Positions 23,264-41,113 of a stretch of 42,529 nt of DNA are shown here, in pieces. The stretch is from Joostella atrarenae (GTDB taxonomy: Bacteria; Bacteroidota; Bacteroidia; Flavobacteriales; Flavobacteriaceae). A program made the position numbers and the translations under genes. The first letter of the stretch is position 1. Every line of letters starts with the position of its first letter. The stretch covers positions 1-42,529 of the forward strand of contig NZ_JAETXX010000016.1 in the NCBI RefSeq assembly GCF_021764745.1, read 5' to 3'. The notes under the pieces are model-generated. The model was given only the letters and a program-made list of their open reading frames with translations. It did no database searches and was not told the origin of the DNA.

Positions 23264-25153
23264 CTACCACCATACTTGAATATCATCTTCATAAGTAAAG
23301 ATTCTTTCGTCCTTCCCTCCTGAAAGGTTTTTAATTAAATATATAGCATTTGAAGGAACATCTTCATAGTTAAGAACATTACTTATTGCTATTTGAGCTC
23401 CTAACGACACCCATTTATTGTCCCAATAGAAAACTTCATACCTATTCCCCGGCACTATTATATTATAAGCTACTCTAGGAAGAAAACGAATTTTATCAAT
23501 TCTTCTGGGAGACATAAAATCCAGCCCTACCCAAGAGTTATCCTCCTCTGGAGCATGGTAAAAAGTTAACACATTTCCATCAAATACTTTATCTTTTGTT
23601 CTATTAGGGAATTTATAGAATACTCCTTCTGTTCCTATAATCTTACCATTTAGTTGTTTCCCATCTTCAAAAAATTCCAGTTCTGAAACATTACAATATG
23701 ACCCTTTTGGAGAAAGAAATCTAATATAACGATATTTCTTATCTAGTGTAAAATCAACTTCATTATAATATTCTTCATTTAAATCCTCAATTTTATACAT
23801 ATTAAAGGCTCCTTCAAAGTCTAGATTGTTTGATGCCTGAAAATATCCCCCATTCATTCTGTTAATAAATCCTTTAATGCGCTCGACTAACGGATACTTT
23901 CTTAAAACTTTTAGCGTGATCAAACTATCTTTATTCGGCTGTTTTATTTCAACTTCACCATGATAATCAAGAATAAAAGGATAGTTTAAAAAATTTATTC
24001 CATCTTCACTAATAGATGTGGGAATATAAACACTATTTCGTCCCACTTTTTTAAAAGTAGCTTTACTTCCCTGTTCAATATTAAATCCCCAAGCAATAGG
24101 AGTCCATTCTTTATTATTAAAGACAGATAAATATACATTCTTTTCAATATTAACGCGCTCCAAAATAGGAATTGATATATCAGCAGTTTTGATGTATTCA
24201 TCTGTTACATCTGTAATGAATTCATTGTTTAGGAATTCAGGTAAATAATGTTTTCTACCAAAGATAGCAGCGTGACTATTCAAATTTTTATTAAAAGTCC
24301 TTCTATAAACCTTACCTAATTTATAATATTCTGATTTAAAACGTCCTAAAGTATCAACTTCAAGTGGTACTACAAAAGGAATTGTTTTTCCGTTCTGATC
24401 ATGTATCGCATTCCAAAAATGACCGGCATGTATATTTGTATAATTCGGTGTAAAATCTTGAAAACATGGAATTGAGTATGCCCTCAACACAAAAGTTATA
24501 TAATCACTTAACTCCTTACAACTTCCATAAGGGAGCTTCTTTAAATAAGAATATGGTAAATCAGGAAAACTGCTTGTTGGCTTTATCTCAAAACCACTAA
24601 ATCTCCGTGTAGTTTCCTTTATTAAGTATTCGGCTGCTTGAGTAACATTATAATATTTATATACACTTCTACCATAGTCTTTTTGCACACTATCTCGCCA
24701 ATTCTCTAATGCTCCATTATTGACTTTGAAAGGGAGAACATTATTAATAAAATCGTTTTCTGTAACATCCTCTTTCCAACCAATCCTATTATATGTTGCA
24801 AAAGCTCTATTAATATCATTAATGAAAAATTCTTCCTTTAATTCACTTAAATCTTCCTGTAAATGTAACTCCGCAGACGAGTTTAAAAAATTCAATTTTT
24901 TATTCAATTTTTCAGGATTATCATGATATAATGAAATTAAATCTAAATAATTTTGATAAGAAGCTCCTTGGTAGTGTAATCTGTTTATAGAGTTTTGTAA
25001 AATTAATAATCCTCCCTCACTCTTTAATTTATCTCCCTGAAATTCCTCTAAAACACGTTCTCTTATAATTATTTTTCTATTTTCCTGACATGATGAAAAA
25101 AAGTAAAATAAAATTATTAAATATATAATTTTTGACATATTATGAGTAATCAT
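23264..25153 (-). CDS. lipoprotein with transglutaminase-like and discoidin-like domains (second paralogue)
   Basis: This 629-aa protein is a full-length paralogue of the one at 520-2496. The lipoprotein signal ends in YFFSSC; the Met at residue 6 (25138) is an equally good start. The transglutaminase-like core has Cys212 (YGSCKEL) and His245 (AGHFWNAI). However, 16 residues after the His, where the first paralogue has its Asp (KLLDA), this one reads FVVPLEV with no Asp, so the third catalytic position seems lost or moved. The C-terminal domain (YIRFLSPKGSYCNVSELEF, NSWVGLDF, YEVFYWDNKWVSLG) ends in IQVWW, as in the first paralogue. It converges with the S9 peptidase gene, 27 bases apart, and faces away from the ABC exporter gene. 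Confidence 0.78.
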   Translation of the reverse strand: MITHNMSKIIYLIILFYFFSSCQENRKIIIRERVLEEFQGDKLKSEGGLLILQNSINRLHYQGASYQNYLDLISLYHDNPEKLNKKLNFLNSSAELHLQEDLSELKEEFFINDINRAFATYNRIGWKEDVTENDFINNVLPFKVNNGALENWRDSVQKDYGRSVYKYYNVTQAAEYLIKETTRRFSGFEIKPTSSFPDLPYSYLKKLPYGSCKELSDYITFVLRAYSIPCFQDFTPNYTNIHAGHFWNAIHDQNGKTIPFVVPLEVDTLGRFKSEYYKLGKVYRRTFNKNLNSHAAIFGRKHYLPEFLNNEFITDVTDEYIKTADISIPILERVNIEKNVYLSVFNNKEWTPIAWGFNIEQGSKATFKKVGRNSVYIPTSISEDGINFLNYPFILDYHGEVEIKQPNKDSLITLKVLRKYPLVERIKGFINRMNGGYFQASNNLDFEGAFNMYKIEDLNEEYYNEVDFTLDKKYRYIRFLSPKGSYCNVSELEFFEDGKQLNGKIIGTEGVFYKFPNRTKDKVFDGNVLTFYHAPEEDNSWVGLDFMSPRRIDKIRFLPRVAYNIIVPGNRYEVFYWDNKWVSLGAQIAISNVLNYEDVPSNAIYLIKNLSGGKDERIFTYEDDIQVWW

Positions 25154-25384: not shown

Positions 25385-27586
25385 ATGACTTTGAAACCTT
25401 TTCCTTTTTACAGACAAATGGATCAAATGGATTGTGGTCCTACATGTTTACGTATGATTGCAAAATATCATGGGAAAGAATATTCTATAGATCTTTTAAG
25501 AAGATATACAGAAGTCACAAGAGAAGGTGCATCGCTTGGTGATCTTGCAGAAGCAGCTGAAAAAATAGGATATCGCACTCTCGCCGTTCAATTAAATTAT
25601 AAATCCTTAAAGGAAGAAGTTCCTTTTCCATGTATTGTATATTGGCATCGAAGACATTTTGTTATTGTATATAAAATAAAAAAAAATAAAATTTATGTCG
25701 CAGACCCAGCACATGGGCTTATAAAATATTCCATTTCAGATTTTTGTAAAGGTTGGTTAGCGTCTTTTCAAGACATACAAGAAGAGGGCTATGCCTTATT
25801 ATTAGAAACTACACCAAAATTCTATGAAATGGAATTTGAAGAAAAGAAGAAATATAATTTCAACTTTTTATTTTGGTATTTTAAACCATATAAGAAATAT
25901 ATTATTCAATTATTGCTTGGTCTCATTATTGGTAGTCTATTACAATTAATTTTCCCTTTTTTAACCCAAGCAGTTGTTGATTACGGAATTAATTATCAAA
26001 ATATTAATTTTATATATCTCATACTAATAGCACAATTAGTACTGTTCTTATCACAAACTAGTGTTGATATAATAAGAGGTTGGATTTTACTACATATGAC
26101 AAGTCGCATAAATATTAGCTTAATTTCTGATTTCTTAATAAAGTTAATGCGCTTACCTATTTCATTTTTTGACTCTAAAAATGTTGGGGACATAATTCAA
26201 AGAATTTATGATCATGATCGAATTCAAGATTTTTTGTCTAGTACGACTCTCAATACATTATTCTCGGCATTTAGTTTGATTATTTTTGGTTTTGTACTTG
26301 CTTACTATAGTATGCTGATCTTTAGCATTTTTTTTATTGGATCCTTAATTTATATTATATGGACTTTATTATTTCTTAAAAAGCGAGAAAAACTTGACTA
26401 TATGAGATTCAGTCAATCTTCTGATAATCAAAGTAGTATATATCAATTGATTTCTGGAATGCAGGAGATTAAACTAAATGGGTCAGAAAGGCGTAGACGC
26501 TGGGAATGGGAAGTAATTCAAATTAAACTATTCAAAGTCTCTATGAAAGGATTAGCTTTATCCCAAATCCAAAATATTGGAGGACAATTTTTTAATGAAT
26601 TGAAAAATATTCTTATAACATTTATAGCTGCCAAATCAGTCATTAATGGAGATTTAACATTAGGGATGATGTTATCGATACAATATATAATTGGTCAGTT
26701 AAAACTTCCTATTAATAATTTTATAACATTTATTCAGGCAGGTCAAGATGCAAAGATAAGTGTTGAGCGACTGGCAGAAATCCATAACATAGAGGATGAA
26801 TCTAACAGTGAGAATGAAAAACTTAAAGCATTACCTAAAAGTGATAGCATATTAATTAAAAAATTAAGTTTTAGATATGGAGGAAAAAGATCGCCATATG
26901 TATTAAAAGATTTAAACTTTCAAATACCAAAGGGTAAAATAACTGCAATTGTAGGTTCTAGTGGAAGTGGGAAAACAACACTAATTAAATTACTATTGAA
27001 ATTTTATAATCCCACTAAAGGAGAGATTTTTATAGGGAATGTTAATTTTAAAAATATAGATATAAATTTTTGGCGAAGAAACTGTGGAAGTGTAATGCAG
27101 GATGGGTTTTTATTTGACGACACTATTATTAGAAATATTACTGAATCGGATTCTGAAAGAACAGTTGATAGAGATCGATTATTCCGTTCAGTAGATATAG
27201 CTAATATAGGAGGTTTTATAGAAAAGTTGCCATTAGGGTTTAATTCTAAAATTGGAATTAGCGGAACTAATATAAGTGGAGGTCAAAAACAGCGAATTCT
27301 AATTTCTAGAGCAGTATATAAAAATCCAAAATTTATTTTTTTCGATGAAGCAACCTCTGCTTTAGATGCAAATAATGAAAAGATAATTATGAATAAGTTA
27401 GAAGAATTTTATCATGGAAAAACAGTCGTTATAGCTGCACATAGATTAAGTACAGTGAAGAATGCACATCAAATAATTGTTTTGGATAACGGTAAGATCG
27501 CAGAAATTGGAAATCACAGAGAGTTAATCGTGAAAAAGGGATTATATTTTACTTTAGTTAAAAATCAACTTGATTTAGGAGGATGA
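25385..27586 (+). CDS. C39-peptidase ABC exporter for a Gly-Gly leader peptide
   Basis: The 733-aa protein is a full peptidase-containing ABC transporter. Residues ~1-130 are a C39 cysteine peptidase with Cys17 (MDCGPTC), His91 (RRHFVIVY) and Asp107 (VADPAHG), which removes leaders after Gly-Gly. Residues ~160-440 hold about six membrane segments. The ABC domain has Walker A GSSGSGKTT (524-532), signature ISGGQKQR, Walker B FFDEATSALD with Asp654-Glu655, and an H-loop AAHRLST. All key residues are present. The 65-aa precursor at 30625 has the matching Gly-Gly site. The HlyD partner follows 5 bases downstream, so the two form an operon. It should process and export the lanthipeptide across the inner membrane. 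Confidence 0.94.
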   Translation: MTLKPFPFYRQMDQMDCGPTCLRMIAKYHGKEYSIDLLRRYTEVTREGASLGDLAEAAEKIGYRTLAVQLNYKSLKEEVPFPCIVYWHRRHFVIVYKIKKNKIYVADPAHGLIKYSISDFCKGWLASFQDIQEEGYALLLETTPKFYEMEFEEKKKYNFNFLFWYFKPYKKYIIQLLLGLIIGSLLQLIFPFLTQAVVDYGINYQNINFIYLILIAQLVLFLSQTSVDIIRGWILLHMTSRINISLISDFLIKLMRLPISFFDSKNVGDIIQRIYDHDRIQDFLSSTTLNTLFSAFSLIIFGFVLAYYSMLIFSIFFIGSLIYIIWTLLFLKKREKLDYMRFSQSSDNQSSIYQLISGMQEIKLNGSERRRRWEWEVIQIKLFKVSMKGLALSQIQNIGGQFFNELKNILITFIAAKSVINGDLTLGMMLSIQYIIGQLKLPINNFITFIQAGQDAKISVERLAEIHNIEDESNSENEKLKALPKSDSILIKKLSFRYGGKRSPYVLKDLNFQIPKGKITAIVGSSGSGKTTLIKLLLKFYNPTKGEIFIGNVNFKNIDINFWRRNCGSVMQDGFLFDDTIIRNITESDSERTVDRDRLFRSVDIANIGGFIEKLPLGFNSKIGISGTNISGGQKQRILISRAVYKNPKFIFFDEATSALDANNEKIIMNKLEEFYHGKTVVIAAHRLSTVKNAHQIIVLDNGKIAEIGNHRELIVKKGLYFTLVKNQLDLGG

Positions 27587-27591
27587 ACTAA

Positions 27592-28914
27592 ATGAAAACT
27601 AGTAGGAAGAAAATAGAAGGACAAGACTATCTTTATAGTGAATCATCAGAAGGTTTTAAAGACATCTTGGGAAAATCTCCAAGTTGGATGATAATCTATG
27701 GAACCACCATAGTTTTTGTTATAGTACTATTATTAATAATTGGAGCAGCATTAATTAGCTATAACGATATTATTTCAGCGAAGATAGTAATAACAAGTAA
27801 AAACCCGCCTATATACTTGAAAGCAAGAAGTGCTGGTCGACTGCAAAATATTTTTGTCGAAGCTAATCAATATGTAAAAAAAGGAGAAATTCTTGCTGTT
27901 ATTGAAAACACTGCTGATATAGAAGATATAAAATACCTTAAAAGTAAGATAAAAATATTTTATCCACGTCTAACAGATTTAGATTCATTGAGATCTAATT
28001 TTTCTTCAAATTTAAATTTAGGGAACATTCAGTCATCTTACAATGATTTTATTTCTAAATATCAAAAATATATTTTATATAATTCACTTCTACCTAATCA
28101 AAATGAATCAGAAATAATAAGAACACAATTAAATGAACAAATAAAACTCTTACAAAAACAACAAGCTCAGCTTAAAATAATGAAGCAAGATATTGAACTT
28201 GCAAATGATAACTATCACAGGCATCTTCAATTATTTGAAAAAGGAGTCATTTCGGAAGCAGAATATCAAAATATATATAGAGAGTTCCTTACTGATCAAC
28301 AAACTTATGAAGGATTCATGACAAATATATCCAATACGAGAATTACTATTTCAAATTATCATAATCTATTAAATCAATCTAACATAGAAGACAAGAGTAT
28401 TAAGAATAACTATAAGCAGGAACTCGAACAATCATATCAGACATTAAAAAATAAAATTTTGGACTGGGAATATGACTTTCTTGTCAAATCTCCAATTCCA
28501 GGTAAAGTAACAGTTTTTGATATTTGGAATAGATATCAAAGTGTGGATTTAAACACTACACTATTTACAATTGTGCCACAAAATTATGAAGAAATAATAG
28601 GAAGAGTTAAACTGCCAATCCATAATTCAGGAAAAGTTAAACTTGGTCAAAAAGTTATTATAAAGCTTGATAATTATCCTTTTGCAGAATGGGGAAGTAT
28701 TGAAGGTGAAATTGCAAGTATTTCAGAAGTTCCACTACAAGGAGAAAAGGCTTTCTATACATTGTATATTGAACTGAAAGGACTTCAGACCTCCCATGGG
28801 AAAAGTATTGATTTTAGACAGGAAATGCAAGGAAAAGCTGAAATAGTTATAGAAGAACTAAGTATTTTACAACGTATATTCTATCATTTCAGAAATGTTT
28901 TATCGAGAACCTAA
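27592..28914 (+). CDS. HlyD-family membrane fusion protein, partner of the C39 exporter
   Basis: The 440-aa protein has a short cytoplasmic N-terminus, one membrane helix (residues ~32-58, IIYGTTIVFVIVLLLIIGAA), a lipoyl half (GRLQNIFVEANQYVKKGEIL), a long coiled coil (residues ~110-285, with EQIKLLQKQQAQLKIMKQ), a second lipoyl half (SPIPGKVTVFDIWNRYQSVD) and a beta-barrel domain. It matches the adaptors that work with peptidase ABC exporters in type I secretion of bacteriocins. A GGAGG motif lies just before its start, overlapping the end of the exporter gene. It would bridge to a TolC-type channel; the only such gene here is at 6892. Confidence 0.9.
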   Translation: MKTSRKKIEGQDYLYSESSEGFKDILGKSPSWMIIYGTTIVFVIVLLLIIGAALISYNDIISAKIVITSKNPPIYLKARSAGRLQNIFVEANQYVKKGEILAVIENTADIEDIKYLKSKIKIFYPRLTDLDSLRSNFSSNLNLGNIQSSYNDFISKYQKYILYNSLLPNQNESEIIRTQLNEQIKLLQKQQAQLKIMKQDIELANDNYHRHLQLFEKGVISEAEYQNIYREFLTDQQTYEGFMTNISNTRITISNYHNLLNQSNIEDKSIKNNYKQELEQSYQTLKNKILDWEYDFLVKSPIPGKVTVFDIWNRYQSVDLNTTLFTIVPQNYEEIIGRVKLPIHNSGKVKLGQKVIIKLDNYPFAEWGSIEGEIASISEVPLQGEKAFYTLYIELKGLQTSHGKSIDFRQEMQGKAEIVIEELSILQRIFYHFRNVLSRT

Positions 28915-28953
28915 CTTAATTTTTAAATGAATTTCAAATTCCCAACTAATTAT

Positions 28954-29637
28954 TTAATATTTAACTTGTACTATAATTTGTTTGAATATCAATTCCTTTA
29001 TTAGTACTTCAACAATGTTATTAAATTTTATTTTTTCGGTTGCAAATTTACAATTGAATTCTTTTGAGAATATTTCTATAGCGGAAGAAATTTTAAATGG
29101 TCGATTAAATATACAGATGAGAAAAAATTGATATTCGTTTAAAGATAATTCTAAAATATTACTTTGCTTTAGTAACTCTTTAGATCCAGTCTGTTGAAAT
29201 AAAAAATAGTATTTACCTCTATTTTCATTTAATATTTTATTATAAAAGATGGATGAATCTTCATAGTTATCTATATTCCAATCCCATTGACTTTTAAAAA
29301 TATTAACAAATGGGTTTTTTTGGAATGTTATATGTTGTAGATCCACTGATTGTTTTTTAAGGATTATATCCCTGTTAATACAATTTTTATGTTCTTGTTT
29401 AAATATTTTTTTAATCTCATCATTAGTATTATTTAATTTATTTTTTTTTCTTTCTATTTTATATATCTCAATTAACATTTCTAAAATTTCATTATCTAAT
29501 TGAAACTTGCTTTTAATATAATTATAAGTGCCTTTAGATGATCCAATATTAATCATTAAGTCATCATTTATAGGTATATTAAGATGATTTAACAACCCTA
29601 TTGTTCTATAATATGTTTGTATAGTTTCATTCCCCAT
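28954..29637 (-). CDS. unknown 227-aa protein of the lanthipeptide locus
   Basis: I do not recognise this protein. It has no signal peptide or membrane segment, is rich in Lys, Asn and Ile, and is predicted mostly helical (YNYIKSKFQLDNEILEMLIE at ~38-57, KISSAIEIFSKEF near residue 185, FNNIVEVLIKELIFKQIIV at the end). Its start overlaps the end of the putative glycosyltransferase gene by 11 bases, so the two are translationally coupled and probably act together. The C-terminal third, with FFLICIFNRPFKISSAIEIF, could be a small winged-helix or peptide-binding module, but this is only an impression. It converges with the HlyD gene. Confidence 0.6.
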   Translation of the reverse strand: MGNETIQTYYRTIGLLNHLNIPINDDLMINIGSSKGTYNYIKSKFQLDNEILEMLIEIYKIERKKNKLNNTNDEIKKIFKQEHKNCINRDIILKKQSVDLQHITFQKNPFVNIFKSQWDWNIDNYEDSSIFYNKILNENRGKYYFLFQQTGSKELLKQSNILELSLNEYQFFLICIFNRPFKISSAIEIFSKEFNCKFATEKIKFNNIVEVLIKELIFKQIIVQVKY

Positions 29638-30511
29638 TATTTAAGTATTTTATTATTCTTTCATGATATGTAGGAAAGTCTACTAATAAATTCAGTTCTA
29701 ATTCTCGACATGCTTCAAAAGTTGATTTTGTTGTCCCATATAAATGAACATACTTTTTCTCATCATATTTACGCATAAAATTATTGAGAGCTATATTATT
29801 ATCTTTCTCATATGAAATATAGTGTTTTATTGGTGTTTTATATAATCGAGCTAATACACTAAAAAAGTACTGCTCATAAATAAGAGCATAAGATGATCCA
29901 ATAAGCGTTTTATTCATCTTATCTAAGTTTTTTTTAATGAACCAAAATGATCTGTCTCCAAACTCTCTAAAAAAATCTAGATTATTTCCTCCAATAATCC
30001 CAGCATTAGTCGCTTTAAATTTTTTTTGAATTTTAAAGTCTTCTACTAATTCATGAGGAAATGAAAAGTCTAATTCCTTTAAATGATTCATTGCGAAGTG
30101 GTAATGTCCTTCATATAAGTCTAAATTTTGTCCAACAAGTTCAGCATTTTCATATTCAGAGCCAAGTTTACCCCATATGTATATATCATTATCTACATGA
30201 ATAAAAGGTTCTTCTTGTAGCATATATGAGTAAATCTTACCTATTGCCCATAGTTCTTTAGGGTAGTTTTTTAAATCCTCTAAATCTAACCGCACATTCG
30301 AATATGGAAGATTCAACTTATCAATTAATATTTTTTTACCTGCTATGTCAGTAATTAATTCAATTTCACCATATTGCTTTTGAAAAGTAAGACAGCTTAA
30401 TGCCCAGCTCATACAAAAATATTTATGATGTTTCCAACCTCCATTAAATTTTTCAGTTAAGAAATTTACTTCTGATGAAGGTTTTGACCAAAAGCTATGT
30501 ATTATTTTCAT
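29627..30511 (-). CDS. putative GT-A glycosyltransferase (DUF6734-like)
   Basis: The 294-aa cytoplasmic protein has the layout of a GT-A sugar transferase: an N-terminal HSFWSKP strand, a central KIYSYMLQEEPFIHVDNDIY segment that resembles the acceptor/donor site with a D-x-D-like Asp-Asn-Asp, and ATNAGIIGGNNLDFF, which resembles the N/F-AG-V/I motif of GT8-type enzymes. A conserved Trp/His/Tyr-rich C-terminus (YVHLYGTTKS, FPTYHERI) follows. It matches my memory of the DUF6734 family in Bacteroidota RiPP loci, not confirmed by a search. It is read away from the lanthipeptide precursor gene, sharing the 113-bp gap, and overlaps the unknown gene at 28954. A plausible job is adding sugar to the core peptide before export. 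Confidence 0.6.
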   Translation of the reverse strand: MKIIHSFWSKPSSEVNFLTEKFNGGWKHHKYFCMSWALSCLTFQKQYGEIELITDIAGKKILIDKLNLPYSNVRLDLEDLKNYPKELWAIGKIYSYMLQEEPFIHVDNDIYIWGKLGSEYENAELVGQNLDLYEGHYHFAMNHLKELDFSFPHELVEDFKIQKKFKATNAGIIGGNNLDFFREFGDRSFWFIKKNLDKMNKTLIGSSYALIYEQYFFSVLARLYKTPIKHYISYEKDNNIALNNFMRKYDEKKYVHLYGTTKSTFEACRELELNLLVDFPTYHERIIKYLNNGE

Positions 30512-30624
30512 ATTATTATGTATAGAGTCATCGAAAATTAGTTAAATTTTTTCTGTTTTGTTAAAATATTAACTATATTACTCAGTAATTACAATCAATA
30601 TTAATCTTTTAAAGCTAATTTATT
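30512..30624. promoter_or_regulatory. divergent promoter region for precursor and glycosyltransferase genes
   Basis: The 113-bp gap lies between the divergent precursor (plus) and glycosyltransferase-like (minus) genes. On the plus strand TTTG at 30557-30560 is followed 18 bases later by TA (30579-30580), a partial match to the Bacteroidota -33/-7 pattern (TTTG, about 19 bases, TAnnTTTG). The -7 part is poor, so this is a weak prediction. Confidence 0.35.
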
Positions 30625-30822
30625 ATGAAAAAACGAAAATTATCAGGCTTGTCCTTAAATAAAAAAAAGGTAAGCGAATTAAATGAAACTATTACAAACA
30701 TGCTAAAAGGTGGAGGAACCGGGTATGTATCATGTGCCATACAATGCGGTGGCGGTGGTAACCACACCTTTTGTATATATAGCTGTTCATGTACATTAGG
30801 AACTGGGAGTAGCTGTCCTTAA
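30625..30822 (+). CDS. class I lanthipeptide precursor with Gly-Gly leader
   Basis: The 65-aa product has a leader MKKRKLSGLSLNKKKVSELN typical of Bacteroidota Gly-Gly natural-product precursors (K-L-x-L-x-K-x-x-V-x-x-L-N pattern), ending in MLKGG (Gly29-Gly30). The core, residues 31-65, contains six Cys (37, 41, 50, 54, 56, 64) and nine Ser/Thr (32, 36, 48, 53, 55, 57, 60, 62, 63), with a GGGG linker at 42-45 and a C-terminal GSSCP. Up to six (methyl)lanthionine rings are possible with extra Dha/Dhb left over. LanB and LanC genes lie just beyond it and the C39 exporter is 3 kb upstream. It is the only precursor of this type I found in the window. Confidence 0.92.
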   Translation: MKKRKLSGLSLNKKKVSELNETITNMLKGGGTGYVSCAIQCGGGGNHTFCIYSCSCTLGTGSSCP

Positions 30823-30846
30823 AATTCAGTTTCAGGAAGATCTTCT

Positions 30847-30894
30847 AAGCATGAACTTATTTATTTCGTAAAATCATGATGATAGTTCATGCTT
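30847..30894. terminator. bidirectional hairpin between precursor and LanB elimination gene
   Basis: AAGCATGAACT (30847-30857) pairs perfectly with AGTTCATGCTT (30884-30894), an 11-bp stem with a 26-base loop, in the 106-bp gap between two convergent genes. T-rich sequence follows on the plus strand. It probably ends transcription from one or both sides. Confidence 0.5.
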
Positions 30895-30928
30895 TAGATA
30901 TTTAGTTTAATAATTCTATAGCTTTGTT

Positions 30929-31825
30929 TTACTTATTAGAATTCTCTCTATTTCTGATTTTAACTCTAGCATTCAAACTATTATAATATCGGTATAAGAA
31001 ATCATAGCATACCATTTCATTCAGTCTATTTTTAGATTTAAATAATCTATTCATATGCATATGAATATAACTGGATAATAATCCATTCAATTCTTCATAT
31101 GTATATTTTTTTGTACTTAATAATTCTCTAATTGTAGGTTGCATATTATGTTCTTTTTGTTGTATTATTGATAAGATTGGGCTATATTCCGATTTATTCT
31201 TATTTAAAATCAAAAAGTTATCTACTTTTTGTCTAGCTTCTCTATATTTTAAATCTAATTGTTTTTTAAGGGGTCTAGACATGCCAAATTCTAATCCAAA
31301 GCCAGTTTTAAGATATTTTAATAAAACTAATTTATCTTGAAGACTGTAATTAAAACAATTTAATAGGCTATCAATAGAACGTAAACCAAATAACCATCTC
31401 AAATTTTCATCTTCATATTCTTCTATTACATCTATAAGTTGAATGATAGATATGCTATCATAATAAAAAATAGATTCAGATAGTTCCATTGAATCATTAC
31501 CATATCTTTCTAATTCTCTTTGATAGGTATCTAATTGAATTTTCCATATTAAATCTTTTTCTATCATTTTTTCTAATGGTTTCTTTAAAGTCGATACTAT
31601 CTTATGAAAATTGTTGGAATCAGGAGAATGTAGCCGGATTCTTAGATGAAATCTAGGGTCCGCATAACGTATAAAAAACCATTTATCGATAATTCCATCT
31701 ATTAACATTTTGTTAGTCAATGGTAATATAATCTGTGTTAAAATTGAGTCAGCAGTTCGACGTCCAGTATATACTTTATAAAAAACCCATTCACTACCAA
31801 TGCTATAGAATCTTTTAGTTGTCAT
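30929..31825 (-). CDS. LanB elimination half (thiopeptide-type bacteriocin biosynthesis domain)
   Basis: The 298-aa protein matches the C-terminal elimination domain of class I lantibiotic dehydratases encoded alone. Examples are WVFYKVYTGRRTADSILTQI and IIDKWFFIRYADPRFHLRIR, where the Arg/His of the RYxDPxxHLRIR motif bind glutamylated substrate, plus ELERYG near residue 115 and HMHMNRLF at the end. It should remove glutamate from glutamylated Ser/Thr to give Dha/Dhb. Its start overlaps the end of the glutamylation-half gene by 11 bases, so the two halves are made together and probably form one enzyme. Split LanB is known from the pinensin locus of Chitinophaga. Confidence 0.9.
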   Translation of the reverse strand: MTTKRFYSIGSEWVFYKVYTGRRTADSILTQIILPLTNKMLIDGIIDKWFFIRYADPRFHLRIRLHSPDSNNFHKIVSTLKKPLEKMIEKDLIWKIQLDTYQRELERYGNDSMELSESIFYYDSISIIQLIDVIEEYEDENLRWLFGLRSIDSLLNCFNYSLQDKLVLLKYLKTGFGLEFGMSRPLKKQLDLKYREARQKVDNFLILNKNKSEYSPILSIIQQKEHNMQPTIRELLSTKKYTYEELNGLLSSYIHMHMNRLFKSKNRLNEMVCYDFLYRYYNSLNARVKIRNRENSNK

Positions 31826-34058
31826 ACTTTTTAATTGATTTTAATTTTGATTTATTATAAAAAGAAATATGAATTTGATGAGTATGAGAAATACTTGTAC
31901 TTCCAAGAATACTTTTACTAGAGAACAAGAATTCTGATAGCAAAAAATTTGATTGGTGCTTCACAGCATCTAAGAGCATTTTAACTGACGATAGGTTAGA
32001 AAAATTAATTAATAAATCGTTTTCTCCATTATTTAATAAGACAAGTTGTGGTAATTTTATTTTGTTTCTCCAATTATCCATTTTTTTTATGGTAATGTCA
32101 TCTTTTGTGGAGCTTGATATAATCTTTTGGATATCTATCTTATTAACTTTCCATTTTGCAAGGTGTAGAATTATATTATCATATTCTACTCTAGGAAGAA
32201 AAGATCGATTATGACTTAAAATTCCATAATCAAAATAAACTCCGGGTCTTCCGTTTTGATATTGAATGTCTCCTAAGAATCGATAAATAGGTAAGGGACT
32301 ATCTGAATAGTTATGAGCATTAGTAATATGAGGAATGACCTCTTTATTTAATTTTGAAGCCCTCAAGACAATTTTATCATTCTTTATTGATACGTACAAA
32401 TCATCAATTGTAATTTGCTTAATGGGCTCCAAGTTTGATTTAGCTAAGTAAGGAATTTCATAATCTCTAAAAGATGGTCGCATTAGAATATTCCCTACTC
32501 TAGCTTCGGGAAGATGAACTACTTCAGCTAGTACTTTATCTTCATTTATTCTTTTTTCAATATCAATAATTTTTTCAGCAAATTGATTTAATCCTTTATC
32601 ATTTTGACAAAATCGAGCTAGCATGTTAGCCGCACTAGAGCCACCCATTCCTGTAAGTTTAATTTTCTCTATTTCACCTTCTTTAATAATTTCCACCATT
32701 GTGGAAAAGGAATCTGGTAAATCTTTCCAATTTGAAGGGAAGTCCTTCAAATCAAAATCTCTTAATTGAATTATAGATTCGTTGTTTTGGTCACATGAGA
32801 TTAAGTATTTTTCAAGCAATTCATATATTGGACTTTGTCTTGAGGAGGATGTTTTTATAAGCTCTGATTGATCAGGTAAAATTATATCATCTATCAAAGG
32901 ATTAATAACTCCATTATCACTATCCTCTCCATAACCAATCCCTGTTTCTACATCTAGCACCTTAGATAATGACATTTCTCTTCCTTCATACCTTTCTAAA
33001 AACTGTATTTTAAAATCATTAAGTCTACTATTTTCATATTCCACAGTTAATTTATTTAATACTGCCATTCCTCTTTTGATACTTGTAACAACATTTCTAG
33101 ATAATAAGTTTTTTTTAGGTTGAATTCCCATATCTGTTTGAAAAAGATATTTCAGTTTAAATGTTGTGGGGTATTCTTTTAAGAAATTACTTAAATTAAT
33201 ATAAGTGCTTATTTTATTTCCAAAATTATTATCTAAAACATTTAACTTATTTTCTATTCTTTCTAGAAAAACTATCTCCTTCTCAGTACCCTCTAGTTTT
33301 TTTAAAACATTTTTTATCTGGTTCATAAATTCAGTCCCAGAGACAGAAGGTTCCAACTCACTAACAAGTAATTGAGCTTCTATTAATTCGTTAATAAAAA
33401 AAAGAGCCTCTTCTTTTGAAATATCATTATTGATCAAATTTTGCGAAATATCCTTAATGGTTGCTCCATTTTTAGATATATTTAGAATCATTTGAAGATA
33501 TTTTGAGTTATCTACTTCCACAATGCAATGTCGTCTAAACCCATCAATAATATAATATTCAACATACCTTATTTTGTTTCCTGACTGATATATACTACTA
33601 TTTGGAAAGAACAATACTTGCTTTTTAATATTTTCATTCCGAGCTAGATCCTTAGCTAGAGCAACTAGATAATTCATGTCAAGACGGGTGTTTCTCCACT
33701 TAAAAGTATCACTATTCATTTCTATGTCAGTCTTCTCATCAATTTTCCCTAAACTACAACCAGCAAAAAGTCCAAAAGGAACACACTTTGTTGACATTCT
33801 AGTAATATATTTAAGAAATGAGTTTTTTAAGCGAAGTTCTTTTTTTTTATCAAGTTTTCCTGCAGTCCATTTATTAATTTCTTTATATAAAGCTGGAGAT
33901 GCTAAAAAAATTGATTCTTGGATAATTGGGTCAGAAAAAACTATCTTTAACTCTTGATCAGAAACAGTTTTGCCTGAGGTTAGCTTCATGTAAAAGTCAA
34001 GATTTAATATAGGTGTTCTTAATACGAAATTGTCAAAATAGTGGTAAGGATTCTCCAT
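31815..34058 (-). CDS. LanB glutamylation half (lantibiotic dehydratase N-terminal domain)
   Basis: The 747-aa protein is the glutamylation domain of a class I lantibiotic dehydratase without the elimination domain. The key early motif FLKYITRMSTKCVPFGLFAG matches the family's R-x-S-x-R-x-TPFG-type region (TPFG reads VPFG here). Later motifs include RNTRLDMNYL, RFCQNDKGL, EARVGNILMRPSFRDYEIPY and YFDYGILSHNRSFLPRVEYDNIILHLAKW, all typical of the family. It uses glutamyl-tRNA to activate core Ser/Thr. It follows the LanC gene by 15 bases and overlaps the elimination-half gene by 11, so the order is LanC, LanB-N, LanB-C in one operon. Confidence 0.92.
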   Translation of the reverse strand: MENPYHYFDNFVLRTPILNLDFYMKLTSGKTVSDQELKIVFSDPIIQESIFLASPALYKEINKWTAGKLDKKKELRLKNSFLKYITRMSTKCVPFGLFAGCSLGKIDEKTDIEMNSDTFKWRNTRLDMNYLVALAKDLARNENIKKQVLFFPNSSIYQSGNKIRYVEYYIIDGFRRHCIVEVDNSKYLQMILNISKNGATIKDISQNLINNDISKEEALFFINELIEAQLLVSELEPSVSGTEFMNQIKNVLKKLEGTEKEIVFLERIENKLNVLDNNFGNKISTYINLSNFLKEYPTTFKLKYLFQTDMGIQPKKNLLSRNVVTSIKRGMAVLNKLTVEYENSRLNDFKIQFLERYEGREMSLSKVLDVETGIGYGEDSDNGVINPLIDDIILPDQSELIKTSSSRQSPIYELLEKYLISCDQNNESIIQLRDFDLKDFPSNWKDLPDSFSTMVEIIKEGEIEKIKLTGMGGSSAANMLARFCQNDKGLNQFAEKIIDIEKRINEDKVLAEVVHLPEARVGNILMRPSFRDYEIPYLAKSNLEPIKQITIDDLYVSIKNDKIVLRASKLNKEVIPHITNAHNYSDSPLPIYRFLGDIQYQNGRPGVYFDYGILSHNRSFLPRVEYDNIILHLAKWKVNKIDIQKIISSSTKDDITIKKMDNWRNKIKLPQLVLLNNGENDLLINFSNLSSVKMLLDAVKHQSNFLLSEFLFSSKSILGSTSISHTHQIHISFYNKSKLKSIKKYDN

Positions 34059-34073
34059 ATTTTATAATTTTAA

Positions 34074-35312
34074 TTAACTTATCATAAGACACTCATCCCA
34101 AAAAGTATTTGATTCAGATAAGTAATCTATCATTACGAGACCTATACCTGAAATACCTTCCAAAAGTGATAAGTCTGGAGTCCATGTCTGTTCAAGACTG
34201 TTCCACCGTTTATAACCAGCATAACCATCTTTATGATTAGCTTTTAATAAACCATCCTTAACCCAAAACTCAAACATTTTTTGAAAGGTAGGATCATTGC
34301 TTTCCTTAAAAATTGTTTTATAGATTTGTGCATTTCCATATGAACCATGGCATAAACCAGAATCAATAACCAAAGTATTCTCAGGACTTTTCCTTTTCGT
34401 GGTATGCATTAGGACCTTCAAAGCCCGCTTGTTGATATAATTATCATTCATTATTTTACCTGCTCTAAACAAAGATAATCCTATGCCTAAGTCCCCATAA
34501 CACCATGCAACTCTACTGTCATACTTTGGAGTACTGTTAAAATCGACCCAATTAGGATATAATGATACTCCGCCGGGTATTTTTTTTTCTTTGCCAAGTA
34601 AAAACATAACACTATTATTTAATAGTGATGATGTAGCTTTTTGAAATTCATCAAATTGATATAAGCGTGATAGAAAATTTATAATCCCGGAAATTCCATG
34701 AGCAACACCCAAATTATGACCATTATTAAGCTCTTCAGTATCTATGTATGATTTCCATTTGATAGTACTTTCTTCATTAAATGGAAAAATGTCTAAGCCC
34801 TTAATGAAGGTAATAATATATTGCTGATAGCAATTCTTAAGGTGTATATTTTTAGTGTTTTTAAAACGCTTAAAGAAATAATATGCATAACCCATAGCTC
34901 CATGAAGAAAGTCATAGTTTCCTTTTTCCAAATCAAATTTCATTTGATTAACTAAATAATCATCAAAAGGTGTTAATAGCTCATCACAGTCTAATTCAAT
35001 GAAATTATTAGCTTCTAAATGTTGAATTACCCATCCAAGACCAGCAATTCCATTACAATAAGTAGGATATGAATAACCCTGATTAATTTTATCAATACAA
35101 TACGAAATGATTTCAGCACCAATATCCGCATGTTTTTCATCCTTTAAAAGCCTAGCATAATAAAATTGAAATAATGCTATACCTGATATTCCAGCTATTA
35201 CTCCTACATTTTCAATGTCCTTGAATTTTTTAGGTATGATTGTACTGAACTCTTTTAATGCTTTTTCAAGTAAATTATTATTAATCAAAGATGAATTAAT
35301 ATATCTTGACAT
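34074..35312 (-). CDS. lanC: LanC lanthionine cyclase
   Basis: The 412-aa protein is a full LanC: the zinc ligands are Cys271 (AWCYGD), Cys321 and His322 (GLCHGSYGN), and the acid/base His is His205 (GVAHGISGI). The positions match NisC (His212, Cys284, Cys330, His331) closely. Repeated G-x-x-G helical barrel motifs (YGDLGIGLSLF, LEGISGIGLVMIDYL) are visible. It adds core Cys thiols to Dha/Dhb to form the lanthionine rings. It is the first gene of the minus-strand operon and is divergent from the MG2 gene at 35508. A 39-base piece of this gene (34678-34716) occurs again at 37987-38025. Confidence 0.95.
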   Translation of the reverse strand: MSRYINSSLINNNLLEKALKEFSTIIPKKFKDIENVGVIAGISGIALFQFYYARLLKDEKHADIGAEIISYCIDKINQGYSYPTYCNGIAGLGWVIQHLEANNFIELDCDELLTPFDDYLVNQMKFDLEKGNYDFLHGAMGYAYYFFKRFKNTKNIHLKNCYQQYIITFIKGLDIFPFNEESTIKWKSYIDTEELNNGHNLGVAHGISGIINFLSRLYQFDEFQKATSSLLNNSVMFLLGKEKKIPGGVSLYPNWVDFNSTPKYDSRVAWCYGDLGIGLSLFRAGKIMNDNYINKRALKVLMHTTKRKSPENTLVIDSGLCHGSYGNAQIYKTIFKESNDPTFQKMFEFWVKDGLLKANHKDGYAGYKRWNSLEQTWTPDLSLLEGISGIGLVMIDYLSESNTFWDECLMIS

Positions 35313-35507
35313 TTTTAATCTTTTATTAATTGTTGTTGAAAGTTAGTATTTTTATAATAAAAAAATAAAAATCAATATATTTAATTGAATATAATTGTTA
35401 ATTACATGTGATCTATATGTTAGGCATTGAAGATCTTATTTAATTCATTACTGAAATTCCCTTCTTCTTTAAGAACAGGCAGATTGTACTATTAATAATA
35501 TTTTATA
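35313..35507. promoter_or_regulatory. divergent promoter region for the LanC-LanB operon and the MG2 gene
   Basis: The 195-bp AT-rich gap must carry both divergent promoters. On the minus strand TAACTTTC lies about 40 bases before the LanC start and is close to the Bacteroidota -7 consensus TAnnTTTG, but I see no good -33 TTTG at the right distance. No palindrome stands out. Confidence 0.3.
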
Positions 35508-37853
35508 ATGAAGATACTAATAGCTTTACTTATATTTTTCCTTTTAAATACACAACAGAATGTAAGTGCTCAGAATGTAAGCGATAGTACAATTATTCAA
35601 AATTATTTTAATTTTGCAGAGTTAAATTCCCCTAAATTATTTATTCAAGTTGACAAAAATAAAATTTCTAAAAAAGAGAAGGTATGGTTTAAAATTTATG
35701 TTCGAGGTAAGGAAAACAGACCATATCTAAACCCAATTAATGTTTATCTTAAAGCTTTTACCGAAGACGGAAGATTTATAAAAGGGAAAGCTTATTTGTC
35801 ACAAGACGGAAAAATAAGTGGAGAAATAGATATTCCTAAAAAAATTACATCTAAGATTATTTTCCTTTATGCCACGTTAGATATTACATCTTCAACTATA
35901 AAACCTAATGATGATATTGAAATTATAACTGTACTGTACAATGATAAAATTCAATACAAAAAAGTTCCAAACCATAAAAGAGAAAAATCAATTAGCTTAA
36001 AACCTGAAGGGGGGAATGTTATTGTAGGAAAAAATAATTTCTTATTTAGAGTTACTGATAAATATGGAAAAGAAATAAGAATCGATAATGCCAGCATAAT
36101 AAACCAAAAAGGAGATACTATATTATCTAACATTTCTTGTGATGATTATGGGTCATGTAAATTTAACCTAGTGGTCAATTTACATGATAAATATCAACTA
36201 CTAGTACAGCCAACAGAGGGGAAAAATTTACAATTATATCTTCCTAAGGTAGACACAAATAAAGAGGTTGGTATTATTGTCAATAATATTTTAAAAGATC
36301 GGGTGCTTATTTCATTAAGTACTTCTAAGATTAATAAATCTAATTTTTATGTTATTATCCATACTGAGGGAAAAATATTAAAAAAGAAACTTAACTTCTC
36401 AGATTCCACAACAAAAGAATTAAATTTTGACAGAAGTGATTTGTTTCCAGGAGTAAATACCATTTCTATTCTCAATGAAGCACACCAACTTATCGGACAG
36501 AGACTTTTTTTTAACTATTGGTTTTCTGAAAAGTATAAGAATAATATAATAATTGAGACTAGTAAAATAATTAATGACTCAATAACAATAAAGCTAGTCG
36601 ACACCTCTTCTGTTAAAAGAAAAGGAACTTTTAATTTTATGGTGACGCCAAAAGAATCTAAAATAAATTTCACTTCACTTGTGAAAAAAGTAATATTCAA
36701 AGATTACATGGAGGGAGGCTTTGATGTTTTGAAATGGAATAATATCATACCAAATAGGAAAGAATTGTTTCAAATTGATAACTTACTTATTCTATATGGA
36801 CATTCACACATAGATTGGAAAAAAATACTAAATACTAATGTCAAAGAAGAAAAGGATAAAATCAATATTGGTTTCAATATATCGGGGAATGCATTGAACA
36901 TCAACAATGAAAATAAAGATAATTTATTTTTATTTCAACAAAGTTCAAAAACTATAAAATATGCTGATGAAATTAGAAAAAAAGACTTCATGTTTGAAAA
37001 TGTTTATTTGAATGCTAATGATTCTATCCATATTTCGTTAGTAGATAAAAAAGGGAGATTAAGAAAACCTATTATTAAGAATTTTAAAGTCAGTCCACAT
37101 TTTTCCATGGATGACTCCTTATCTATTAATAAAAATTTATTTTATGATGTCCAATCATCCGATTATGAACAATTAGATGATGAGGTAAATTTAATTATTG
37201 AAGAAAATACAATCCTATTGGATGAGGTTGTCCTTAACTCAAAAAAGAAAAATCAGCTGGTTGTTAATCCATCTTTATTGAATGGGATGTTCGAAGGAGT
37301 CAAGGTTAGTGATTCTATTACTAAGAAATATATTAAATTGTCAAATTTATTGAGAAAACTTGGTTTTAAGATCAAAATAAATCCCCTTGACGGTAGAATG
37401 AATATTGGTCCTAAAATTCTTATGAATTCACCACCAATAATTATTTTAGATGGGTTTGAAATTACTGAAAATTTAAAAGACTTCTATTTACACAATGTTG
37501 ATGAAGTATATTACGAGCATCAGGGAGTTAATAAAAGTAATGGAGGAACAATTTATATATATCGATTTAATGGCAAAAGAGATAATCCAGAAAAAAAGAT
37601 AACATCTACTGTAATGCCAATAATTGGTTTTTCTAATTTTAAAAGATTCGTAACACCCATTTATGATAAAAAAAGTAAAGCATTTACTTCTTATGGTATA
37701 ATATTTTGGTCTCCAGAACTGAAGTTTAATGAAGATGGTATTGCTTTTATAAAAATACCCAATTATGAAGTTTCTAATCTTAAAATAATTATCGAAGGAT
37801 TTTATCAAGATGGTAATATAATATCCAAAGAATATTATGAAAAATTTAAATAA
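35508..37853 (+). CDS. secreted MG2/TonB-plug-like protein of the lanthipeptide locus, 781 aa
   Basis: A signal peptide (MKILIALLIFFLLNTQQNVSAQ) precedes an MG2-like domain (LFIQVDKNKISKKEKVWFKIY, about residues 45-65), further beta-sandwich segments (LKPEGGNVIVGKNNFLFRV) and, near residues 580-690, a plug-like region (EVVLNSKKK; PPIIILDGFEITENL; NVDEVYYEHQG; GGTIYIYRF) like the plug of TonB-dependent receptors but without a barrel. It ends IIFWSPELKFNEDG. It is a distant paralogue of the protein at 14346-16691 and happens to have the same length. It is divergent from the LanC operon. It could be an outer-membrane-associated factor for release of or immunity to the peptide, which is inference. 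Confidence 0.68.
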   Translation: MKILIALLIFFLLNTQQNVSAQNVSDSTIIQNYFNFAELNSPKLFIQVDKNKISKKEKVWFKIYVRGKENRPYLNPINVYLKAFTEDGRFIKGKAYLSQDGKISGEIDIPKKITSKIIFLYATLDITSSTIKPNDDIEIITVLYNDKIQYKKVPNHKREKSISLKPEGGNVIVGKNNFLFRVTDKYGKEIRIDNASIINQKGDTILSNISCDDYGSCKFNLVVNLHDKYQLLVQPTEGKNLQLYLPKVDTNKEVGIIVNNILKDRVLISLSTSKINKSNFYVIIHTEGKILKKKLNFSDSTTKELNFDRSDLFPGVNTISILNEAHQLIGQRLFFNYWFSEKYKNNIIIETSKIINDSITIKLVDTSSVKRKGTFNFMVTPKESKINFTSLVKKVIFKDYMEGGFDVLKWNNIIPNRKELFQIDNLLILYGHSHIDWKKILNTNVKEEKDKINIGFNISGNALNINNENKDNLFLFQQSSKTIKYADEIRKKDFMFENVYLNANDSIHISLVDKKGRLRKPIIKNFKVSPHFSMDDSLSINKNLFYDVQSSDYEQLDDEVNLIIEENTILLDEVVLNSKKKNQLVVNPSLLNGMFEGVKVSDSITKKYIKLSNLLRKLGFKIKINPLDGRMNIGPKILMNSPPIIILDGFEITENLKDFYLHNVDEVYYEHQGVNKSNGGTIYIYRFNGKRDNPEKKITSTVMPIIGFSNFKRFVTPIYDKKSKAFTSYGIIFWSPELKFNEDGIAFIKIPNYEVSNLKIIIEGFYQDGNIISKEYYEKFK

Positions 37854-37910: not shown

Positions 37911-38111
37911 TTAAAAATGGATATGACTAATTGTGAAAACCGAAACTATTGATATCTGTTCGCTTAATAATTCTACATAATATATTTTTATAATCCCGGA
38001 AATTCCATGAGCAACACCCAAATTACCAGTTGTAAGTACTGGCGTATCATTGATTACATCTAAAATAAATGAAACTATGGTATTTAGTTTATATTCTGGT
38101 AACAACTCCAC
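37911..38111 (-). pseudogene. remnant containing a 39-bp exact copy of LanC
   Basis: Bases 37987-38025 repeat 39 bases of the LanC gene (34678-34716) exactly, in the same orientation; they encode NLGVAHGISGII including the catalytic His. The short frame around them (66 codons, stop at 37911) is otherwise unlike LanC: upstream it reads IVSFILDVINDTPVLTTG and downstream KIYYVELLSEQ, with no zinc-ligand motifs. It has no other gene features and lies just past the MG2 gene stop. It may be a worn LanC copy refreshed locally by gene conversion, or a short templated insertion. Confidence 0.5.
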
Positions 38112-38530: not shown

Positions 38531-39313
38531 ATGAATATCATAAAAAAAATCTACAATATTATTTCATGGCCAGGCAGAACATTTGAAAAACTCAATAGTT
38601 ACTCACAAACCAAATATCAAAAAGGGCTTTCGAAAAGAATAGCTCGTTCGTATGATTTAGCTAAAGAAAAAGTATCTGAACAGCACAAAGATTCAGAGCT
38701 TAATGATGAAATTTGTATTGAAAACAAAATACTCATAAGAGATCACAGAAAATTCAACTATTTCGATAAGTTTTTTCAAATTGAAAGTTCTGACCTTGAT
38801 CCTCAAAGTAAAAGACGTCAGAGTATTCATTTTTTGATGCAAGACCTCATGCAGTTTCCCAATCAGAAACGAGAACAACACATTGCAGATGATTTGATGG
38901 GTAATTTAACCCAATTTCTTTTTGACATTAAAATTCATTCACTAATAGAAAAAAAGGAAATCGAAGAATCAGAATTTCACGAAAAAGCGCTTTCTAATCC
39001 AAAAAGTAAAGGAGGTGGGAGACCTCCTAAAAACGGGGTAGCCCCTGCTAATCTCTTAATTATAAAATATGCTGTGATCCATAAAGAGTATCCTGGAACT
39101 AAGCCCGGTGAAAATGATTGGGAAGAATTCTATCAAAAACTAGCTAATGAAGGCGGATTAACCATTGGATCAATCAGAAATAAATTCTCCCAACTGTATA
39201 ACCAATATGAGATATACTTGAAAGATAACCCAAAATATCGCTCTACTCTTATTGAAAGACAAATGCTTAAAGAATACCCTAAAGCAGAAAATTTTATTAA
39301 ACAATATGTATGA
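38531..39313 (+). CDS. unknown protein of the mobile element, 260 aa
   Basis: I do not recognise the family. The protein is cytoplasmic, charged and mostly helical, with a middle hinge KGGGRPPKNGVAPANLLIIK (about residues 161-180) and a C-terminal part (GTKPGENDWEEFYQKLANEG, then GSIRNKFSQLYNQYEIYL) that could bind DNA. It begins 90 bases after the terminator at 38401-38440 and precedes the excisionase-like gene. Proteins of this size are often found at this position in Bacteroidota integrative elements. Confidence 0.65.
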   Translation: MNIIKKIYNIISWPGRTFEKLNSYSQTKYQKGLSKRIARSYDLAKEKVSEQHKDSELNDEICIENKILIRDHRKFNYFDKFFQIESSDLDPQSKRRQSIHFLMQDLMQFPNQKREQHIADDLMGNLTQFLFDIKIHSLIEKKEIEESEFHEKALSNPKSKGGGRPPKNGVAPANLLIIKYAVIHKEYPGTKPGENDWEEFYQKLANEGGLTIGSIRNKFSQLYNQYEIYLKDNPKYRSTLIERQMLKEYPKAENFIKQYV

Positions 39314-39406
39314 TATACATAATTAGCTATAACTTTAATTATTATTAATTATTACCTTAAAGAAAGGATTGTTCATTTGTCCTGTTAAACATTAAAAACT
39401 GCAATT

Positions 39407-39682
39407 ATGAACAATCCATTTGAAATTATTCAAACAGAGCTTTTTGAGATAAAAAGTGAATTACAAAAATTACATAAAAAGTCTAAAACAGACTATTCAA
39501 ATAAATTCTACACTTATAAAGAAGCTGCCGATCTCGTAGGATGCTCAGATCAAACTATTCGTAATCACGTAAAAAAGGGTGAATTAAAAGCCACTAAGTT
39601 TGGCCCTAAACTAATAAGAATTAATCACAATCAACTTTTTGATTCCAACAACGAAGTAAAATCTTTTAAATATAAAAGGTAA
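39407..39682 (+). CDS. excisionase-like HTH DNA-binding protein
   Basis: The 91-aa protein has a short helical N-terminus and a MerR/excisionase-type helix-turn-helix: FYTYKEAADLVGCSDQTIRN followed by HVKKGELKATKFGPKLIRIN, matching the HTH_17 pattern (Y-T-x-x-E-A-A-x-x-L-x-x-S-x-x-T-I). Such proteins direct excision or regulate Bacteroidota integrative elements. Its TAA overlaps the ATG of the DUF3987 gene by one base (TAATG), so translation of the two is coupled. Confidence 0.82.
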   Translation: MNNPFEIIQTELFEIKSELQKLHKKSKTDYSNKFYTYKEAADLVGCSDQTIRNHVKKGELKATKFGPKLIRINHNQLFDSNNEVKSFKYKR

Positions 39683-41112: not shown

Positions 41113-41113
41113 G

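Follow-up and report, generated by a model that had tools for sequence, protein, structure and literature searches.

The window analysed here, a stretch of 42,529 bases that constitutes the entire contig C8 of the draft genome of Joostella atrarenae (3.99 Mb in 71 contigs), contains a gene cluster at positions 25385–35312 which probably directs the synthesis of a class I lanthipeptide that is also glycosylated under the control of its leader peptide. The genes are arranged in the sequence PCAT (+), HlyD (+), orf227 (−), DUF6734 (−), lanA (+), LanBc (−), LanBn (−) and LanC (−), and all eight are open and full length. The lanthipeptide part of this cluster is of an already known type; the new part is the predicted leader-guided glycosyltransferase pair formed by DUF6734 and orf227. 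Protein families were called with the curated cut-offs of Pfam and NCBIfam.

25385..27586, + strand: PCAT, a C39 peptidase/ABC exporter (PF03412, Peptidase_C39, 124.3 bits; PF00664; PF00005, ABC_tran, 103.1 bits)
27592..28914, + strand: HlyD-type periplasmic adaptor (PF13437, HlyD_3, 47.2 bits)
28954..29637, − strand: orf227, predicted RRE-like (leader-binding) partner of the glycosyltransferase (AlphaFold and Foldseek; hhalign to PqqD)
29627..30511, − strand: DUF6734, predicted GT-A glycosyltransferase (PF20508, 305 bits; HxDxD at H105/D107/D109)
30625..30822, + strand: lanA, 65-residue precursor with leader 1–30 ending in Gly-Gly (GG) and core 31–65 (NF038153)
30929..31825, − strand: LanBc, glutamate-elimination domain as a separate gene (PF14028, Lant_dehydr_C, 240 bits)
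31815..34058, − strand: LanBn, glutamylation domain (PF04738, Lant_dehydr_N, 433.6 bits)
34074..35312, − strand: LanC, lanthionine cyclase (PF05147, LANC_like, 172.8 bits)

The DUF6734–orf227 pair

The AlphaFold model of DUF6734 had a mean predicted local distance difference test score (pLDDT) of 91.3. Comparison of this model with the PDB by Foldseek gave 180 matches at E ≤ 0.001, the best being bovine alpha-1,3-galactosyltransferase (E = 8.7 × 10−6). LgtC, glycogenin, GlyE, xyloside xylosyltransferase and UGGT were among the further matches, and we take the fold of these glycosyltransferases to be GT-A. The residues H105, D107 and D109 of the HxDxD motif were invariant in 30 of 30 aligned sequences; judged by the predicted fold, D107 and D109 would supply the Asp-x-Asp metal site of a GT-A enzyme. 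DUF6734 matches no glycosyltransferase family in Pfam beside PF20508, and its profile gave no credible match against PDB sequences. Based on the model, we predict that DUF6734 is a GT-A glycosyltransferase.

For orf227, no Pfam or NCBIfam family was matched. Its AlphaFold model (pLDDT 85.4) has strands at residues 143–166, followed by helices at 168–218. Foldseek placed TglHI on top (E = 3.6 × 10−4 and 6.2 × 10−4, root-mean-square deviation (rmsd) approximately 10), and MadB, MibB, PqqD, lasso B1 proteins with leader, TbtB and ThcOx appeared lower (E = 0.07–2); several of this lower group contain an RRE. Superposition of orf227 on PqqD and lasso B1 gave template modelling (TM) scores of 0.60–0.67 by target length (E = 0.12–1.5). 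Thus, the predicted fold agrees with the PqqD-like winged helix after a beta hairpin that characterizes an RRE, while the resemblance by sequence is weak. A profile built from 26 PqqD domains was aligned by hhalign with residues 164–215 of orf227 (P = 0.0022) and with the C-terminal extensions of fused DUF6734 proteins (P = 0.0017 and 0.00043); the positive control LanBn gave P = 0.00062, compared with 0.14 for LanC, 0.17 for LanBc, 0.42 for HlyD and 0.5 for PCAT. Furthermore, orf227 matched the extension of the 540-residue DUF6734 fusions over nearly its full length (97.5%, E = 5 × 10−12) and that of the 441-residue fusion type with its C-terminal half (77%, E = 1.9 × 10−5). From these sequence comparisons we conclude that orf227 represents the C-terminal domain of DUF6734 proteins, encoded as a gene of its own. 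Most likely it is an RRE, for which leader binding is predicted from the modelled fold. An unrelated immunity protein, also considered for orf227, was set aside, as the orf227 hidden Markov model finds the C-terminal part of the fused DUF6734 proteins collinearly.

DUF6734 is present in 3 of 60 relatives and in 10 of 395 genomes of the class, its own genome being counted in both. An alignment (A1) of ten DUF6734 domains was used to scan named genomes, in which 225 stretches matched and 131 of them encode a relative. All counts of DUF6734 loci refer to the best 80 of these 131 relatives with up to 10 kb per side, at least 8 kb being covered on both sides in 58 of the 80. The partner domain was fused to DUF6734 in 43 of the 80 loci and encoded by the next gene in 14; the orf227 profile alone reached 15 of these 57 partner-positive loci, six of the 15 being its own seeds. 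In L121, L123, L124, L126, L134 and L146, DUF6734 is followed by a protein of 534–673 residues that matches the partner-domain profiles, in L121, L123, L134 and L146 with its C-terminal part.

Six Flavobacteriaceae loci among the 80 share both the DUF6734–orf227 pair and a LanA similar to that of the window:

L116, uncultured Croceitalea: LanC, no LanB in the stretch covered
L117, uncultured Flavobacteriaceae: LanC, no LanB in the stretch covered; lanA approximately 7 kb from the pair
L118, Croceivirga metagenome-assembled genome: LanA, LanC, both LanB halves and the pair, with PCAT and, beside it, an HlyD homologue
L119, Maribacter flavus KCTC 42508: LanA, LanC, both LanB halves and the pair, with PCAT and, beside it, an HlyD homologue
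L120, uncultured Kordia: LanA and the pair, neither LanB nor LanC in the stretch covered
L130, Allomuricauda metagenome-assembled genome: LanA, LanC, both LanB halves and the pair

Hence, LanA, LanC, both LanB halves and the pair are co-located in 4 of 7 loci (window, L118, L119 and L130). Identities to the window, taken from the best BLAST segment, were 50–60% for DUF6734 and 29–40% for orf227 in the six loci, 48–54% for LanC in five loci (not L120), 50–54% for LanBn and 54–56% for LanBc in L118, L119 and L130, and 72–73% for PCAT and 56–58% for HlyD in L118 and L119. The leader part of LanA was 53–73% identical in five loci, and the LanA of L117 was found by pattern. The genes of the pair overlap in 6 of the 7 loci and are separated by a 5-base gap in L118. 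Despite differing gene order and orientation, lanA lies within approximately 200 bp of the pair in 6 of the 7 loci, the window included.

GG-leader peptides are concentrated at DUF6734 genes. We counted short frames that encode a GG leader followed by a core with two or more Cys, a filter under which some genuine precursors are lost, for example the LanA of L118 and L130. Within 1 kb of DUF6734 there were 26 such peptides in 155.1 kb (0.168 per kb), three being LanA of the window's family; beyond 4 kb the count was 12 in 776.3 kb (0.0155 per kb), so that their density beside DUF6734 was approximately eleven times higher. At least one such peptide was found within 1 kb in 21 of the 80 loci and within 2.5 kb in 30. 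PCAT is encoded in 26 of the 80 loci, LanB or LanC in 10, and a protein of 520–560 residues like that at L080:7640–9283, VKOR-like by inspection, in 17. L080 itself combines DUF6734, a Cys-rich GG peptide, PCAT, HlyD and the 547-residue VKOR-like protein without LanB, a glycocin-like layout in Bacteroidota; the VKOR-like protein is also encoded in L081 and L111, and other loci hold parts of the L080 set.

Precursor and class I enzymes

LanA passed the NCBIfam model NF038153 'class I lanthipeptide' (25.4 bits, cut-off 22) and is the only match to this leader model in the genome. With six Cys and nine Ser/Thr, its core (residues 31–65) provides the residues that a class I core requires. The monoisotopic mass of this core is 3390.354, or 3228.259 once nine waters are lost, to which each hexose would add 162.053. 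A first-pass annotation of this DNA had described the GG leader and the same residue counts, both of which are borne out; of the two Cys-x-Cys-like clusters that it mentioned, there is one literal Cys-x-Cys (CSC), and CAIQC and CIYSC are Cys-x3-Cys. Among the seven LanA of the window's family, the leaders share a mean identity of 59% (47–80%) and the cores of 19% (6–35%), the cores containing 2–6 Cys and 6–9 Ser/Thr; the Cys number is odd in 2 of the 7 (L116 and L130, five each). Since cores vary far more than leaders within the family, an unfamiliar core is to be expected, and there is little to support the earlier idea of a novelty residing in the core peptide. Several enzymes reading one shared leader, combined with rapid change of the core, would be compatible with a secreted peptide used in antagonism or signalling.

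The glutamylation and elimination domains of the class I dehydratase reside on two proteins (PF04738 and PF14028), whose genes share an 11-base overlap, in line with the split LanB described before. LanBn is the sole PF04738 match in the genome, and a scan of genome contigs with LanBn as a single query revealed no relative. In alignments, LanBn matched 9g04 (MadB according to the structure title; E = 3.3 × 10−48) and NisB (E = 2.3 × 10−20), and LanBc aligned with 9g04 and MibB. For LanC, the alignments, to LanC-like proteins and NisC, were weaker (E = 2.4 × 10−9 to 2.4 × 10−4). The LanC residues C271, C321, H322, H205, D134 and R267 were invariant in 8 sequences, so that the zinc ligands (Cys and Cys-His; C271, C321 and H322) are intact as claimed. 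Likewise, R53, H60, R62, R64 and H255 of LanBc were invariant in 6 sequences, and C17, H91 and D107 of PCAT are conserved in L118 and L119 (72–73% identity). The broader statement that all catalytic residues are intact holds for the residues checked in LanC, LanBc and PCAT but not for LanBn, in which residue 91 is Lys and all 5 relatives compared have Arg. In the alignment K91 faces an Arg of NisB, which we take to be Arg87.

Taken together, the first-pass annotation is supported in its reading of a class I lanthipeptide locus that has a split LanB, a GG leader and a C39 ABC exporter with its HlyD adaptor. The extent given there, 25385–37853, stands for the named parts. The end at 37853 does not, as it takes in a 781-residue protein (35508–37853, +) whose membership in the cluster is unsupported because it matches no Pfam or NCBIfam family above cut-off and has no homologue among the 20 loci compared; it was therefore set aside as a cluster member. 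A distant relative of this protein, encoded in the window at 14346–16691, matches proteins in L118 and L119.

Proposed pathway and alternative explanations

By the functions of their families, LanBn would glutamylate Ser and Thr residues of the LanA core, LanBc would eliminate glutamate to yield dehydro residues, and LanC would close (methyl)lanthionine rings with the six Cys. The RRE-like orf227 would bind the conserved LanA leader and present the core to DUF6734, which may use a nucleotide sugar to glycosylate the core, possibly at Tyr34. PCAT would cut the leader after GG and, acting with HlyD, would export the product; the order of these steps is part of the proposal.

Tyr34 is the fourth residue after the GG site of LanA. 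With leading Gly/Ala trimmed, the six residues that follow GG include Tyr or Trp in 7 of 7 LanA cores of the window's family compared with 14 of 61 other LanC-linked GG peptides (P = 1.2 × 10−4; the five L070 precursors were kept out of both groups). Outside this family, the same is true of 20 of the 23 GG peptides located within 1 kb of DUF6734 (P = 1.1 × 10−7 against the same 61). These P values overstate the difference because the peptides were known before the rule was framed, the group filters differ slightly and the peptides are interrelated. We hypothesize that Tyr34 is possibly the sugar acceptor. More widely, DUF6734 and the RRE-like domain might constitute Bacteroidota-wide leader-directed peptide glycosyltransferases that act on an aromatic residue just after GG of secreted Cys-rich peptides, with class I rings added in the window's family; this extension is doubtful and is put forward as a tentative one.

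Several observations count against leader-directed glycosylation of LanA or against an aromatic acceptor. The superpositions of DUF6734 on glycosyltransferases are poor (TM 0.38–0.52 by query length, rmsd approximately 5–9, for the 50 matches listed of 180), and sugar transfer is predicted from the fold. For orf227, only the two TglHI matches (chain A) fall below E = 0.001, both with an rmsd of approximately 10; two carbamoyltransferases (E = 0.025–0.064) rank between TglHI and LanB. The hhalign probability of the orf227–PqqD match was just 13%, Pfam PqqD was matched by 1 of 9 orf227 family members (E = 0.14), the DUF6734 catalytic domain profile gave P = 0.041 with PqqD, and aligning orf227 directly to the LanBn profile yielded nothing (P = 0.36). 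In 23 of the 80 loci the partner domain was found neither fused nor adjacent, although two of these, L122 and L138, contain a match at another position. Of the 80, 30 had served as seeds for the three partner profiles, and the non-seeds matched in 27 of 50. The co-occurrence with lanthipeptide genes is incomplete: in the stretches covered, L120 has neither LanB nor LanC and L116 and L117 have no LanB, the lanA of L117 lies approximately 7 kb away from the pair, DUF6734 and LanB are on different contigs in genomes G024 and G032, and DUF6734 of G159 is approximately 100 kb from LanC. The aromatic rule, which was not framed blind, does not hold for 3 of the 23 peptides (L144, L187 and one of L195), nor for any of the five precursors of L070, where a DUF6734 gene accompanies lan genes. 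At 1–2.5 kb from DUF6734, an early aromatic residue is present in 3 of 15 peptides and missing in 12; for L182, L185, L189 and L193 these are the nearest candidates, and 9 of 10 of their peptides are without such a residue. Finally, K91 of LanBn could weaken dehydration.

A rival explanation is a plain class I lanthipeptide bearing lanthionine rings only, with DUF6734 and orf227 acting on another peptide or on a surface glycan. L016 and L062 have split LanB, LanC and LanA without DUF6734 in the stretch covered, and 70 of the 80 DUF6734 loci have no LanB or LanC in theirs. Nevertheless, we regard this explanation as unlikely: the pair is located between exporter and lanA in the window and stays close to lanA in 6 of 7 loci through changes in gene order, GG-leader peptides cluster at DUF6734 genes, and the leader model has no second match in the genome. 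Our preferred reading, glycosylation of LanA, leaves room for another acceptor. Attachment to Cys, Ser or Thr, the pattern seen in glycocins, with the early Tyr/Trp serving recognition or export instead, is a real possibility, although we do not favour it. It has the precedent of the glycocins themselves (PMC12457901), and the five Cys each in the cores of L116 and L130 (2 of 7 with odd numbers) would leave one Cys outside the rings. The frequency of the early aromatic residue (7 of 7 and 20 of 23 versus 14 of 61, by the rule described) and the sugars of cacaoidin and NAI-112 on Tyr and Trp (PMC8068269) argue against it.

It is very improbable that the cluster is decaying. LanBn K91, a LanC fragment at 37989–38048 and further fragments, of LanC and LanBc, on contig C24 might be read as signs of inactivation, but these fragments are extra copies, none of the eight cluster genes is interrupted or truncated, and the other residues checked are conserved.

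Known systems and neighbouring DNA

The glycosyltransferases of glycocins are of the SunS/GccA type (GT2, PF00535). DUF6734 differs in that PF20508 is its sole match in Pfam, and in that its model resembles LgtC, glycogenin and alpha-1,3-galactosyltransferase. To our knowledge, glycocins have a disulfide-bonded core and are made without LanB and LanC, both of which the window cluster has, and we know of none with lanthionine. Leader peptide, glycosyltransferase and PCAT are common to both systems, and glycocin sugars sit on Ser, Thr or Cys (PMC12457901). Lanthipeptides with a sugar on an aromatic residue, as proposed for the window, are represented by NAI-112 (class III, on Trp) and cacaoidin (class V, on Tyr), which belong to other classes and depend on other glycosyltransferases, AplG for NAI-112 and GT-2 and GT-4 for cacaoidin (PMC8068269). 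Fusions of an RRE with a glycosyltransferase were predicted by RRE-Finder in 2020 (PMC7470986) and 2025 (PMC12710340), a combination of leader-binding domain and glycosyltransferase comparable to DUF6734 and its partner; the 2025 paper names PF00535, with 0 occurrences of DUF6734 in its main text. No paper on DUF6734 was found in the literature searched, most subscription papers lying outside its scope, and searches on titles and abstract openings revealed no glycosylated class I cluster of this kind.

Nearly one-quarter of class I LanCs come from Bacteroidetes, whose LanA leaders have an LxLxKx5L motif, many with a Gly-Gly end and often with a C39 protease close by, as in the window (Walker et al., 2020; PMC7268733). 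According to the same paper, LanB is split in several class I clusters, including pinensin as the first-pass annotation had stated, and the separate glutamylation and elimination proteins are common to pinensin and the window cluster. LanCs of the Bacteroidetes precursor family I 17, to which pinensin belongs, resemble LanM cyclase domains (PMC7268733), and the window LanC likewise has LanM as its best NCBIfam model (107 bits, below the cut-off of 304). The feature that would set the window apart from pinensin is the predicted glycosyltransferase and RRE-like protein beside lanA; in the passages found of Walker et al. (PMC7268733), 'glycosyl' appears solely for class IV clusters and in one reference title. 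LanI-101, a Bacteroidota class I product of Runella limosa, carries 4–6 dehydrations (PMC9576775). The same paper reports that class I modification was not efficient in E. coli and suspects the lack of native tRNA-Glu as the reason. PF14028 occurs in 10 of 60 genomes, the own included, and among the 12 full-length matches listed 8 are in frames of 282–319 residues (as in the window) and 4 in frames of > 1000. A match to the window LanC (E ≤ 0.001) was obtained in 37 of 395 genomes of the class, the own included, the weakest surely not all representing lanthipeptide clusters. The split-LanB clusters L016 and L062, with LanC and a GG precursor, are 44–53% identical to the window enzymes. Because of these precedents, the lanthipeptide part alone is ordinary for the phylum, and in view of the 37 genomes with a LanC match it matters less. 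The earlier annotation had also placed the novelty in the neighbouring genes, a hunch that was right with regard to the predicted glycosyltransferase and RRE-like protein, but the two genes between HlyD and LanA were neither named nor explained. If our interpretation is true, a function would be assigned to a Pfam family of unknown function, a glycosylated branch would be added to the class I lanthipeptides, and a leader-guided glycosyltransferase would become usable for placing sugars on chosen peptides.

Other lanthipeptide loci encountered show further arrangements. In L019, L020, L022 and L023, LanB is split, the stretch covered contains no LanC match and the GG precursors have 0–1 Cys; their peptides are perhaps dehydrated but uncyclised. 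L019 and L020 also encode proteins of 557–572 residues that are TPR/AraC-like by inspection. L063 (G110:C72) has 13 GG-leader frames in an array and two LanC genes, with no LanB match in 12.3 kb.

In the window, ARAGORN and Rfam (gathering threshold) found nothing. Between 28800 and 31100, promoter-like sites were at chance level (16 seen, 18.6 expected), and one terminator-like site was seen (0.4 expected). Genes that by inspection are excisionase-, primase-helicase- and insertion sequence (IS) transposase-like are located at 38531–42396 and 12991–14199, which suggests mobile DNA beside the cluster. The LanC fragment at 37989–38048 (−) derives from a further LanC (76% over 21 residues, E = 0.004). 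On contig C24 of the same genome (3069 bases), the LanC and LanBc fragments (L017:66–314 and 2745–2882) flank a 696-residue lipoprotein, S41 peptidase-like by inspection. Two lipoproteins of the window, at 520–2496 and 23264–25153 (−), are paralogues with 32% identity and transglutaminase-like by inspection; in the DUF6734 locus L124, a homologue of them adjoins a homologue of the O-antigen-ligase-like protein encoded in the window at 18869–20815.

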